Under the pieces are notes generated by a model that had not been told where the DNA came from, did no database searches, and was given only the letters and a program-made list of their open reading frames with translations. A stretch of DNA of 64,000 nt from an uncultured Mycoplasma sp. (GTDB taxonomy: Bacteria > Bacillota_I > Bacilli_A > Mycoplasmatales > Metamycoplasmataceae), in NCBI GenBank assembly GCA_947040455.1, contig CAMRBN010000003.1:62001-126000 (forward strand), written 5' to 3'. Below, piece by piece: positions 50,403 through 59,702 of the stretch. Numbering within the stretch: the stretch's first letter is position 1; every line of letters starts with the position of its first letter. A program made the translations under genes and the position numbers.

Positions 50403-51314
50403 ATGAGCATCAAAAGACACAATCACTTTTATCCACATTTCTTAATTAAAAATTGAATCAAAGATCCTTGATCAAAGAAAAAAAATAAACGGGTTAAATA
50501 TAACAAAAGAAAAGATATGGGAGAAACAAATTATTATCCCGATGAATTAGAAAATGATTTGGCAAAAGTGGAAGGTGATATTAGCCAAATCATCAAATCA
50601 ATTATTTCTGAAGAAGGAACCTTTAAAATCTCTATTGAAGAATGAGAAAAAATAATTTTATATGTCAGAATACAATCAATTAGATTGACTAATGTTTCGC
50701 ACTTTATAACATCTCCAGATTCATATTTTCCTGGCAATAATAATTTCTTATCAGGAATATATACTACAAATAATGATGAAGGAGTTTTGAATGCCACGAA
50801 TTATTTTGTTGACAAATATCTGACTTATACAAAATCAGAAAATTTTATTAAACAATATCTTTCTGATGATGAATTAGGAATTATTATTTGAAACTCTGAG
50901 GATAGCGTTTTTGTTGCTACTGACAAAGCAGTCTTTAAAGAAGTGGATATGGATGGTTTATTTTTGTTTTTATTAATGCCAATTTCTCCAAATAAAGCTA
51001 TATTAATCACTAAAAATAAATACTATGCATCTTTATATAAATTACAAAATAATCTAAATGTTCACAATGACCCGCGCTTGTCCATGTCTTGTGATGATAA
51101 TTTTTTAATTAACCATATCCAGGATAATGCCATTGAAGATTTAAGCTCCAAAATATCAGTTCCCTTTTATGAAGTTAAAAAAGGTGATGTTGAGCAAATT
51201 ATTTGTGCCATGTCACAAGATGCAGAACAACTTGTTTTTTCTGACGAAGATGATGAAACAATAATGAAAAATATAAGGTATTACAATCCACGAAGAAAAA
51301 TATCAGAAAGTTAG
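50403..51314 (+). CDS. DUF4238-like protein 1
   Basis: A 303-aa soluble protein starting MSIKRHNHFYPHFLIKNWIKDPW. The H-x-x-x-P-x-F-L-x-x-(F/W) opening is the DUF4238 hallmark; the middle has IWNSEDSVFVATDKAVF and FLFLLMPISPNKAILI, matching the family's display/phosphoesterase-like core of unknown function. DUF4238 genes are widespread in accessory regions and prophages. It is a clear paralogue of the gene at 52551 (for example IYTTN, LENDLAKVE and FLLMPISP are shared). Leaderless. Confidence 0.82.
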
Positions 51315-52126: not shown

Positions 52127-52538
52127 TATTCCCTTTTTATTAAATATTTATTTTAAAATTATACCAATTATTTCTTATAGTTGCATAAATAGAAAGTTCA
52201 TTGTAGGGTTTTCAATTGAATCATTAGAAATGAACAAATGTTATTAGAATAATAAGCACTAATGTTCTTACATTGGTATTTAGTAGGTTATGTATTTTTA
52301 TAATAAGATTATAAAGATTGCAAACGCTTGTATCTTTCAATAAAAAAGAAATAAATAGAGAATTAAAATAATTGAAAATTTTAATTAAAATCACTTCTTA
52401 GAACAAAAAAAAGAAATTATTAATCTAATATAGATAAATAAATATGTTCAAATTTCACTAAATATATAGAAATTAAATTAATTCATATTTGTACCCTAAA
52501 AACAAAGTTATCTTTTTTACCAAGCAGTTATATAAGTG
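52127..52538. other. Gene-free stretch between divergent genes
   Basis: About 420 bp upstream of DUF4238 gene 2 and of the coiled-coil gene. I find only very short frames, the -10/-35 of the coiled-coil gene (TATAAT near 52157 on the minus strand) and the promoter of DUF4238 gene 2 at the right end. No RNA structure stands out. Confidence 0.6.
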
Positions 52539-52544
52539 TATAAT
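52516..52544 (+). promoter_or_regulatory. Promoter of DUF4238 gene 2 (leaderless)
   Basis: TTTACC at 52516-52521, 17 bp, TATAAT at 52539-52544, 6 nt, ATG at 52551. The layout is identical to that of gene 1. Confidence 0.75.
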
Positions 52545-52550
52545 TTTTAT

Positions 52551-53444
52551 ATGACACAAAAAAGATATGATCATGTGTTTCCACATTTTTTAATTAAAAA
52601 CTGACATCAAAAACCGTGATCTAAAAATGAAAACAAAAGAGTTAAATATAATAAAGAACAATTCACGAAAATAAAGAATTACTATCCGATTAAATTAGAA
52701 AATGATTTAGCAAAAGTTGAACATGACATTAGCAAAATCATCAAGATGATTTTAACAAAAGAGCAATTCAAATACTCAAAGGAACAATGAGTAAAAATTA
52801 TTTTGTATATCAAAATAAAAGCCATTAGATTAGAAAATGTTTCTCATTATAACAACGCTCCTGAAAAAATTTTTTCAAGAAATCGAGAATTTTCATTTGG
52901 AATATATACCACTAATATCCAAGAAGAAGTATTAAGAGAAACTCAATATTTAGTTAACAAATATTTAAACTTCAAAAGAGAAAAAAGTAAAAATAAAATA
53001 TTTTCGCTAATTTCTGATTTAGGAATTGTGATTTGAAATTCTGATGATGATATTTTTGCAGCTACTGACAAAGTTATTTTTAAAGAAATTGATATAGATG
53101 ATAAATTCTTATTTTTATTAATGCCAATATCTCCAAAAAAAGCTATTTTAATCACTAAAAACAATTACTATTCATCTTTAGAACATCTATACAATACTTA
53201 TGGTGATGATAATGTGTCATTGTCTTGTTCTGATAACATTTTAATCAATAACATTAGCACAAATATTACCAAAGACAAAAATATCAAGATACCTGCTCAA
53301 ATATATCAAGTAAATGAGTGAGATGTTGAAAAAATAGTTTGTGCCATGAGCAAAGACGCCAAGAAACTTATTTTTTCTGAAAAATCAAATGAAGAAATAA
53401 TAGATGACATCAGTTACAATGACTATTCAAGAGACATCATTTAA
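52551..53444 (+). CDS. DUF4238-like protein 2
   Basis: A 297-aa paralogue of the gene at 50403. It starts MTQKRYDHVFPHFLIKNW and shares NYYP-LENDLAKVE, FGIYTTN, GIVIWNS, FLFLLMPISPKKAILITK and the C-terminal pattern. Trp codons are partly UGA. Two such copies flank the coiled-coil gene, which suggests duplication. Confidence 0.82.
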
Positions 53445-53482: not shown

Positions 53483-54871
53483 TTATAATTTATTAGAGAT
53501 TATTTTTTGTATTGTTAGAGATGTTTCTAAGGAAGAATCATTGTCTAAAACTACTATTTTTTTAGCAAATTTTAAAGCAAAATCTTTAAATTCTTTACTA
53601 TTATATTTATTGTTGATATTTTTAAAAAATTCATGATTTTTTGTTTCATATTTTCTATATTCTTCACTTTCAGATCTTTTATTTCTTCTTTCCTCAATTA
53701 TTGTATCACTACAAATTATTAAAAACAAAATATCAAGTTTCTGTATTGATTTTAAATAAGATAAGTATTTTTTTTCTATTACTTTTAATTCCACAATTTG
53801 ATCTTGTGTGAAGTTATTTAATTTTATATGAATTTCAGGAAAGATAAAATCATCTATTAAATGTCTATCAATTATAACGTTTTCAAAATTTGGAAATTTT
53901 TCAATCTCTTTCTTTCTTTGAGCAAACATTTCTTTTTGAAATTCAAAAGCGTGTGTTTTCATATCTTTCATATATTCATCAAATTTTTCATTTATGACTT
54001 CATCTCTTTCATATAGAAATTCAAAATTCTCTAAAGATTCTTCAAGTTTTTTAATGATTGTTGTTTTACCAACTGCGCCTGGACCAATTATTGCTATTTT
54101 CATATTTTTCTTTCTTATTTTTAAGTTATAAGCAGATATTATTAAAAACAAAATGTTCATAATAATTATAGAAATATTTATAACTCCAACTCCCGAAAAA
54201 AAGATAATTCCGAGAATGTTTTTGGTTATTCAAATATATCATGTTTTTTGATAATTTAAAACCATTGTGACAAACGCTACAGTAGATATTGCATTTATCA
54301 AAGTATCAATAACTCGACCGGGTCAATAATAATGGAAATTTTCGCCATATTCCGTTCCTGGAATATTTGCCAAATTTGCTCAAAATACATTTATTATTGG
54401 AGTTAAAAAATAAAATAATACAAATGCAAAAGCAAATATTAAAATTAACATTAATAATGAAGTTAATGACAATCTTTTTTCTTGAATTTTTTGATTATTC
54501 TTCGTTTTTAATAACATAGTTATAAATATTGGAATATAAAAAAGGATGTTAATCAAAAAATCACCTGTTAAATTAATTGATAAACTAAACAGACCAAATA
54601 AAATAGCATTGCAAATACCCCATACATAACCACTTCTTTTATTTTTGTTTATTTGCAATATGGCAATAACTCCCGTAAATGAAGCAAGGCCAGATGTTGT
54701 GCCCAAGATTTTTTGGTAAAGTTCTCCCGACTCTCATATCCAACTATTGGAAGAGATTGAATACAATGAAAAAAAGATACTTACTATTAGAAAGATAAAA
54801 ATCAAAAAATATGAAATATATTTCCTAATTTTCGCATTTTCTTGAAATTGTTTTCATATTCTATCAAAAAT
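53483..54871 (-). CDS. PnuC-family transporter fused to a deoxynucleoside kinase
   Basis: One uninterrupted frame of about 460 codons encodes two proteins usually separate. Residues about 20-250 are a PnuC-type transporter (LASFTGVIAILQINKNKRSGYVWGICNAI, seven helices; the later NFHYYWPGRVIDTLINAI and KTWYIWITKN segments fit PnuC). Residues about 257-462 are a dNK/dGK-type kinase: P-loop IAIIGPGAVGKTT, an acidic ERDEV, HAFEFQKEMFAQRK, VIIDRHLIDD and the lid EERRNKRSESEEY. It may be a single import-and-trap unit for nucleosides. No ATG starts the frame; ATT at 54871, within 10 bp of the ndk stop, is my guess. If the two were separate, the kinase would begin at ATG 54103. ndk lies just upstream. 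Confidence 0.72.
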
Positions 54872-54876
54872 AAATT

Positions 54877-55296
54877 TTACTTCATTTCCATTTCTTCTTC
54901 TGTAAAGTAAATATTAAGCTCATATAAGGCTCTTTCTACTGAATCACTGGTATGAACAATGTTATTTAGGATATCATTGGAGTAATCTCCACGAATAGTT
55001 CCAGGATTGGCTTTTTTAGGGTCTGTAGCACCTGCCAATGTTCTAATGATAGCAACAGCATCGTTACCCTCTAAAGCCATTGCTACCACAGGTCCTGATT
55101 CCAGATTATCAATTAAAGAATCATAAAATGGTTTCCCTTCATGGACATCATAATGATGCCTTGATTGTTTGTGGTTAACATGAAGAAATTTAATGGCAAT
55201 AATATCAATGCCTTTTTCTTCGATTTTAGTAATTACCTTACCAATCAAATGCCTCTTAACAGCATTTGGTTTAATCATCAAAAATGTTTTTTCCAT
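54877..55296 (-). CDS. ndk: Nucleoside diphosphate kinase
   Basis: A 139-aa NDK making NTPs and dNTPs. The catalytic His is in NNIVHTSDSVERA; the phosphate-binding parts MIKPNAVKRHLIGKVI and GDYSNDILNNIVH are present, as is ATDPKKANPGTIRG. It fits the next gene: a nucleoside importer and kinase would feed it diphosphates after a further step. Not all mycoplasmas keep ndk. Confidence 0.95.
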   Translation of the reverse strand: MEKTFLMIKPNAVKRHLIGKVITKIEEKGIDIIAIKFLHVNHKQSRHHYDVHEGKPFYDSLIDNLESGPVVAMALEGNDAVAIIRTLAGATDPKKANPGTIRGDYSNDILNNIVHTSDSVERALYELNIYFTEEEMEMK

Positions 55297-57869: not shown

Positions 57870-59702
57870 TTAATTTTCTTTTTTAGAGTAAATAAAATCA
57901 AAAACATCAGGATATTCATCTTTATTTTTGTTACTAAAAATTATTGAATTTACTTTTTTATCTGGTGTTTTTTCAATTTCTGTTTTTTCAAACCAAGGAT
58001 CAATTATAGACTCTTCCAAATCTTTTGAATGTGGATAAAAATCTGAATATTTTTTTATATTTTGCTCAATAATATTTGTATTTTTTGTAAATCATTTAAT
58101 TATTCCATTACCAGTATCATCATCATCAACTATCAACTTATAATTTTTATTAAAACTTTCAACATAAGGAACATGATAGACAGCACTTTTCAAATATGCT
58201 GCTCCAAATAAAGGGATAATAAAAACGTTTTTATCTTTTTTTATTATATTATTTATTACATTAAAATCCGCAATACCTTCAACAAAAATAACTTGCTCTG
58301 GTTTTAATGCTTGCAAGTTCGCTTCTAAAAATCTTAATTCTATATGTTTGTCAAGAAAGCCACTTGGAACTCCCAAGCCCTTCGTTTTATAAATAGGTGT
58401 CATAATAGTGGCATTATCCGTTTTATCTCTTCTTAAGCAAAATAAATTTTGATACATTTCCATTTTTATCATAAATGGAGAATGTGTAGAGTAAATGATA
58501 ACTTGATTTATTCGGTTTTTATCAATTGAAAAATTTCGAATAACACTCAATAAATAATTTTGATAAATTGGATTTAAATGTTGTTCAGGTTCATCAATTA
58601 AAATAATAGTAAATTCATTTTTTTGAATTGAATTTAGTTGGAAAATCAAAGAATAAAAAGCTTTTATTCCATCACCCGATAAACCTGCATCATTATTTCA
58701 GATAAATTTATTTTGATTTACATTATCTTTTGTATTCTTTACATTAAAATTTATAAATAAATTATTGCTTGAATCAAAAGTAATATTTATCTCGTTTTGA
58801 AAATCAGCACCTATTTTATCAGATATTTGTTTAATTAAATTATTGCACTTTAATTCAAAATTTTTTAAATACTCTTGTACATCTCTAGGAGTCATTTGCT
58901 TATTTTTTGGAACAACACCAGAAAACATAGGTAAAGAGGTGTTTGGTTCATTGGGATTTTCCCTGAAAAGAAGTCACTCTTTAAAATCTACATCTAAAAT
59001 TTTTTCTCATATTTTTATCATATATATTTGTTGAAGACTGTTGGGGTCGCTAACTGACTCATCTAGTAGCAAACCTAATTTTAAAGTTGTGAACTTAAAA
59101 ATATCTTCATTACTAAAATATTTTATTTTCAATTTTGTTTCGTGTGTATTTAATTTCTGAATATATAATTTCCTAATTTCGTAAACTATTGAAATAATTT
59201 TTTCATCTTCACTTTTTTTGATTGTTTCTAAAAATTTATCATACCTTGGCTTATGGGCGAATGTTCATCAAGGAGTATTGGAGTCCATTATATAGGCTCC
59301 AGTAGATTTATAATTGGTATTTTCTAATTCTTCTAATTTAGATTTCATTTTTAATTCTAATTTTGTTTTGAACTCCTCTGGAAAAGAAATTCTTTCAGAA
59401 ATATTACTTTCATTAATCCCAGTTTTCACAAGATATTCAAAATCATTTTCATTATCTTGGAACAAACAAGAAACATCAATTGATGGTTGAGAAAGTGAGA
59501 TGCCCCCTTCTTTATACGAAGTTTTATCATCCTTGATAAAACGGGAATTGATAGATACTTTTTTAATAACATTTAACAAAGAGGTTTTACCAACATTGTT
59601 TTCTCCAACAATAGCGATTAACCTTGGAGAATTAACATTGATAGACAAGTTAACATCAATTAATGATCGGTAGTTTTTTATTTTTATATTTAGTTTTTCC
59701 AT
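57870..59702 (-). CDS. OLD-family ATP-dependent nuclease
   Basis: A 610-aa protein reassembled over UGA codons. N-terminal ABC ATPase: Walker A IVGENNVGKTSLLN (residues 33-40), signature-like LSGDGIKAFYSL near 345, Walker B IILIDEPEQHLNP (about 366), switch His STHSPFMI. C-terminal TOPRIM: VIFVEGIADFNVI (Glu at 475) and LIVDDDDTGNG (525-531). These are the OLD (overcoming lysogenization defect) nuclease features. Without a following UvrD-like helicase gene it is class 1-like rather than Gabija. It probably acts in defence or DNA repair. Confidence 0.88.

Follow-up and report, generated by a model that had tools for sequence, protein, structure and literature searches.

An uncultured Mycoplasma sp. 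carries a gene in which a PnuC-type membrane domain and a deoxynucleoside kinase (dNK)-type kinase are encoded in a single frame, and this PnuC-kinase fusion is real, conserved and old. The gene lies in a 64,000-nucleotide stretch of DNA (contig CAMRBN010000003.1, positions 62,001 to 126,000), which will be referred to as the window. Transport by PnuC and PnuT is facilitated diffusion, and PnuC-type carriers are thought to accumulate their substrate only through trapping by a separate kinase. The reading that we favor, with somewhat better than even confidence, is that this mycoplasma-specific fusion of single origin is a self-trapping nucleoside importer. In this view a nucleoside would cross the membrane through the eight-helix PnuC-type domain, presumably by facilitated diffusion as with PnuC and PnuT, the C-terminal cytoplasmic dNK-type kinase would phosphorylate it with ATP at the pore exit, and the phosphorylated nucleoside, unable to leave, would enter nucleotide salvage. 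No description of a PnuC-kinase fusion was found in the literature searched, which covered a minority of subscription papers.

Gene structure, start codon and neighborhood

The original prediction held that one frame encodes both a PnuC-like transporter and a dNK-like kinase, and a search for the two domains and for a missed stop between them bore this out. Under NCBI translation table 4 the frame runs without a stop between the domains for 462 codons followed by TAA, which rules out a missed stop; the TGA codons seen when it is read with table 11 are confined to the PnuC half. With the curated Pfam gathering cut-offs as the threshold for membership, the protein matches PF04973 (PnuC/NMN_transporter) at 68.6 bits against a cut-off of 27.3 (8.4e-19) and PF01712 (deoxynucleoside kinase) over residues 259-449 at 52.1 bits against a cut-off of 27 (9.5e-14). 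An assembly artefact is ruled out by the presence of the fusion in a second genome (86% identity), in G031 (43%) and in the cultured G126, which we take to be Mycoplasmopsis cynos NCTC10142 (record NZ_LR214986.1) and in which the fusion is annotated merely as 'nicotinamide mononucleotide transporter'. The features of the gene and the members of its family are collected in Table 1.

Table 1. Features of the fused gene in the window and members of the fused family
Feature	Positions, loci or genomes	Strand	Remarks
Fused gene, PnuC-type membrane domain and dNK-type kinase	53483..54871	minus	462 aa; stop TAA 53483-53485
Membrane domain, residues 1-252	54116..54871	minus	eight predicted helices; PF04973 match residues 62-249
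Kinase domain, residues 257-462	53486..54103	minus	begins with in-frame ATG, a potential internal start
ndk, nucleoside diphosphate kinase	54877..55296	minus	directly upstream of the fused gene
Complete catalytic fusions	G000 (window), G003, G031, G288, G121, G126, G148, G150, G151, G153		
Pseudokinase copies	G153a, G150a, G159a, G099, G114, G118, G127, G126b, G129 contig 18		
Pseudokinase loci	L071, L073, L075, L083, L084, L085, L057:4723-6021		
Damaged, split or truncated copies	G287, G132, G144, G147, G129		
Kinase-only proteins	G221, G014		

The likely start of the fused gene is the ATT at 54871, which is kept in the 86%-identical relative G003. No in-frame ATG, GTG or TTG is met before the TTG at 54805, and this TTG is a less likely start because it would truncate the first helix. 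The fused gene of G121 has an ATT 6 nt downstream of AAGGAGGT and that of M. cynos has an ATC (record position 460574) 6 nt downstream of AAAGGAGG, both of which are near-perfect Shine-Dalgarno sequences; the PGAP start of the M. cynos protein, an ATG at 460625, is 17 codons downstream of this ATC, inside helix 1. AUU or AUC starts seem to be used in 4 of the 21 family members (window 54871, L065, L069 and L057). Constraint on the first 26 codons is weak (dN/dS of 0.81 between the window and G003, over few codons), so that a true start slightly further downstream is conceivable. The stop codon of ndk ends 5 nt ahead of the ATT, and translational coupling of the two genes is therefore likely.

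It had also been predicted that ndk is the next gene and that it completes the path. Instead, ndk lies upstream of the fused gene and adjoins it only in the window's genus, and the conversion of dNMP to dNDP would still need an NMP kinase. In M. cynos two fused genes flank a dNK-dNK-thymidine kinase (TK) cluster, and dNK or TK genes are found within about 5 kb of the fusion in G114, G118 and G148, with synteny that is partly shared. The fused kinase is accompanied in the window genome by a separate stand-alone dNK, and a second PnuC of that genome, located beside an inorganic pyrophosphatase, clusters with NmPnuC and the PnuC of Bacilli. Elsewhere in the window, a 245-aa protein without a Pfam match lies between two diverged plus-strand DUF4238 paralogues (50403-51314 and 52536-53444), and an AAA_15 ATPase of the OLD/GajA/AriA type (57870-59702; PADLOC AriA 1.8e-22) is a possible anti-phage defense gene.

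Distribution and origin of the fusion

Altogether 10 genomes from four genera and two families carry a complete in-frame fusion in which the kinase motifs are intact, and about 20 additional fused-family loci were found beyond the window. Full-length homologues of the window protein are 43-86% identical to it. All 20 aligned fused-family proteins match PF04973, while a dNK match at E 0.001 is obtained for only 4 of the 20 and 8 of the 20 match AAA_28 (NadR ribosylnicotinamide kinase domain). In the PnuC tree the 20 fused domains are monophyletic (100/100) and separate from the 28 others, the closest outsiders being stand-alone PnuC of other Mollicutes. In the kinase tree a single clade (100/100) likewise unites the fused kinases with the two kinase-only proteins and excludes the 17 stand-alone dNKs. 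Since there is a single fused clade in both trees, the fusion probably arose once. In several lineages the PnuC half persists next to a dead kinase, and a single fusion after which either half or the catalytic activity was lost would fit both trees.

No fusions were seen outside the order in class and phylum samples, which were partial, and a stand-alone PnuC adjoining a dNK was found at none of 11 loci in Bacilli. PnuC frames of about 400 aa at eight loci in other Bacilli were considered and set aside, as they are PnuC-like with an N-terminal insert and without a kinase; the insert of the proteins at L132-L136, L138 and L139 is probably extracellular. Four tandem stand-alone PnuC-like genes occur in a single genome from a related family (L066, G165). 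A phage or plasmid origin was rejected, as there was no phage match and the sole 'plasmid' match was the M. cynos record, which has the size of a chromosome but is filed as a plasmid.

The membrane and kinase domains

AlphaFold, run with a 20-row alignment, predicts eight membrane helices (one N-terminal helix plus the Pfam core) rather than the seven originally proposed, followed by an alpha/beta kinase, with a mean pLDDT of 86. The halves match PnuC (4qtn, by Foldseek) and the deoxyadenosine kinase of M. mycoides. The charges of the loops obey the positive-inside rule if both termini are on the cytoplasmic side, a pattern that would place the kinase in the cytoplasm. The membrane half shares its fold and the WxxWxxxN motif with the PnuC of Neisseria mucosa (PDB 4qtn, PF04973), and W211, W214 and N218 of the window protein are invariant in the fused-family alignment. 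Unlike 4qtn, the fused proteins carry a kinase and a Lys directly before the motif Asn (K217 in the window), which is found in 20 of 20 fused proteins and in no stand-alone protein aligned. Additionally, the polar pore residues of NmPnuC (PxQ, AQ and EQW) are replaced in the fused proteins, including Gln residues and an EQW that 4qtn has in common with several stand-alone relatives. The pore is remodelled in this way, and the replaced residues are putative nicotinamide riboside (NR) binders. PnuN of Lactobacillus acidophilus, a PnuC homologue predicted to transport deoxynucleosides (Rodionov and Gelfand 2005, cited in PMC7749635), is a comparable case but stands alone.

The kinase domain of the window protein has the P-loop GPGAVGKTT (263-271) with the Walker-A lysine K269, E288, Q312, R319, DRH (335-337), D341 and the LID arginines, and the P-loop, catalytic Glu, DR motif and LID arginines are all intact in the 10 complete fusions. 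The expectation that this kinase resembles dGK/dAK was upheld by fold and by profile search. The closest fold is the M. mycoides deoxyadenosine kinase MSC_0388 (2jaq/2jas/2jat, PF01712; VIA-align Z of 22.9 over 186 residues at 2.1 A for 2jaq), Foldseek matches the same three structures, and the profile search finds dNKs (2jaq, 5e-18). MSC_0388 and the fused kinase have in common the fold, P-loop, DR motif and LID as well as the base-recognition Q and R/D positions; the fused kinase differs in being joined to a membrane domain, in the replacement of Tyr43 by Met and of E-P by E-R, and in belonging to a clade separate from the stand-alone mycoplasma dNKs. The dCK/dAK-type Arg/Asp pair of the window (R319, D341) is Gln/Ser in a sister lineage (G150b, G151, G153b and G144), and this coupled change suggests that the lineage may prefer another base. 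Tyr43 of the M. mycoides enzyme has been proposed to block the 2'-OH (PMC6609329), and this position is Met, Ile or Leu in the catalytic fused kinases. Between the window and G003 dN/dS is below 1 for both halves, at 0.11 for PnuC and 0.46 for the kinase, the latter representing only moderate constraint.

Substrate and function of the fused protein

From the pore and the kinase we infer that the substrate is a nucleoside, most likely deoxycytidine or a (deoxy)nucleoside with a purine base; ribonucleosides and pyridine ribosides are also possible. The original prediction was that it is a deoxynucleoside rather than NR. The changed pore residues and a kinase profile search that does not list NadR up to E = 1 suggest a substrate other than NR, but the 'deoxy' part is weakened by the loss of Tyr at the gate, and a deoxynucleoside should be held loosely as only the likeliest substrate. 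An importer-kinase for a pyridine riboside (nicotinamide or nicotinic acid riboside) that feeds NAD synthesis is unlikely. In its favor, the window protein passes the equivalog cut-off of TIGR01528 (NR transporter PnuC; 49.6 versus 42.45 bits) and keeps WxxWxxxN, the loss of the proposed 2'-OH gate might admit ribosides, and the invariant pore Lys could pair with a carboxylate. The fused genomes have NAD synthase, but a search for NAPRTase there gave no match, which leaves the source of NaMN missing. However, NAPRTase occurs in only 15 of 320 order genomes, and no genome of the window's family gave a match, whether it carries the fusion or not; the gap thus does not follow the distribution of the fusion, and NAPRTase loss was rejected as an explanation of it. 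NAD synthase was present in 12 of 12 order genomes tested, though most genomes of the order lack NAPRTase. The pyridine riboside reading is further opposed by the replaced polar residues of NmPnuC and stand-alone relatives, by a kinase profile search in which NadR was not among the matches up to E = 1, and by the separate PnuC of the window genome, whose place in the tree is with NmPnuC and the PnuC of Bacilli.

Other alternatives concern the role of the C-terminal domain. In a pseudokinase lineage the domain is retained with GTSGSGKE and DGH motifs or with the P-loop deleted, and the GKE/DGH domains of G150a, G153a and G159a have dN/dS values of 0.06-0.13, which are rough as synonymous sites are near saturation. 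Values of about 0.1 point to purifying selection, and the dead domain is probably kept for a role, either a non-catalytic one or a chemistry that tolerates an altered P-loop. The pseudokinase model has a pLDDT of 80 and its weak Foldseek matches to dNKs (E about 0.1) are only suggestive of a dNK-like fold. This lineage, together with the presence of one catalytic and one pseudokinase copy in each of G126, G150 and G153, could indicate that the domain is mainly a nucleoside- or nucleotide-binding regulator through which the transporter is gated or assembled, with catalysis secondary or lost; this is quite unlikely, as all catalytic motifs are kept in the window copy and nine others and the kinase is retained alone in G221 and G014. 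It is also quite unlikely that substrate is handed directly from pore to kinase and that the catalytic and pseudokinase paralogues (M. cynos, G150 and G153) form mixed oligomers in which the pseudokinase acts as substrate sensor and channel gate. We would be surprised if internal initiation at ATG 54103 yielded a free kinase beside the fusion, and hence two products: the ATG is in frame right at the domain junction and the kinase-only gene of G221 uses the equivalent ATG, but the junction Met is absent in G031, G121, G126 and G148 and no clear Shine-Dalgarno sequence was found by eye ahead of it.

The self-trapping importer is consistent with the domains, the AlphaFold and Foldseek matches, the kinase profile search, the conserved catalytic residues, monophyly, dN/dS, the positive-inside loops and the dNK and TK neighbors. 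Against it stand the loss of either half in some lineages, the TIGR01528 score, the absent deoxy-gate Tyr, the separate dNK of the window genome and the moderate constraint on the kinase. Of the idea that channel and trap are one protein, the single chain with both domains was confirmed and the function appears plausible. Public annotation names these proteins only as vitamin-B3 transporters. A natural one-chain carrier and kinase makes the coupling of transport to trapping directly testable, and the fusion is a clue to the substrates of orphan PnuC-like proteins. If the importer reading is true, it also offers a defined route of nucleoside entry in mycoplasmas.
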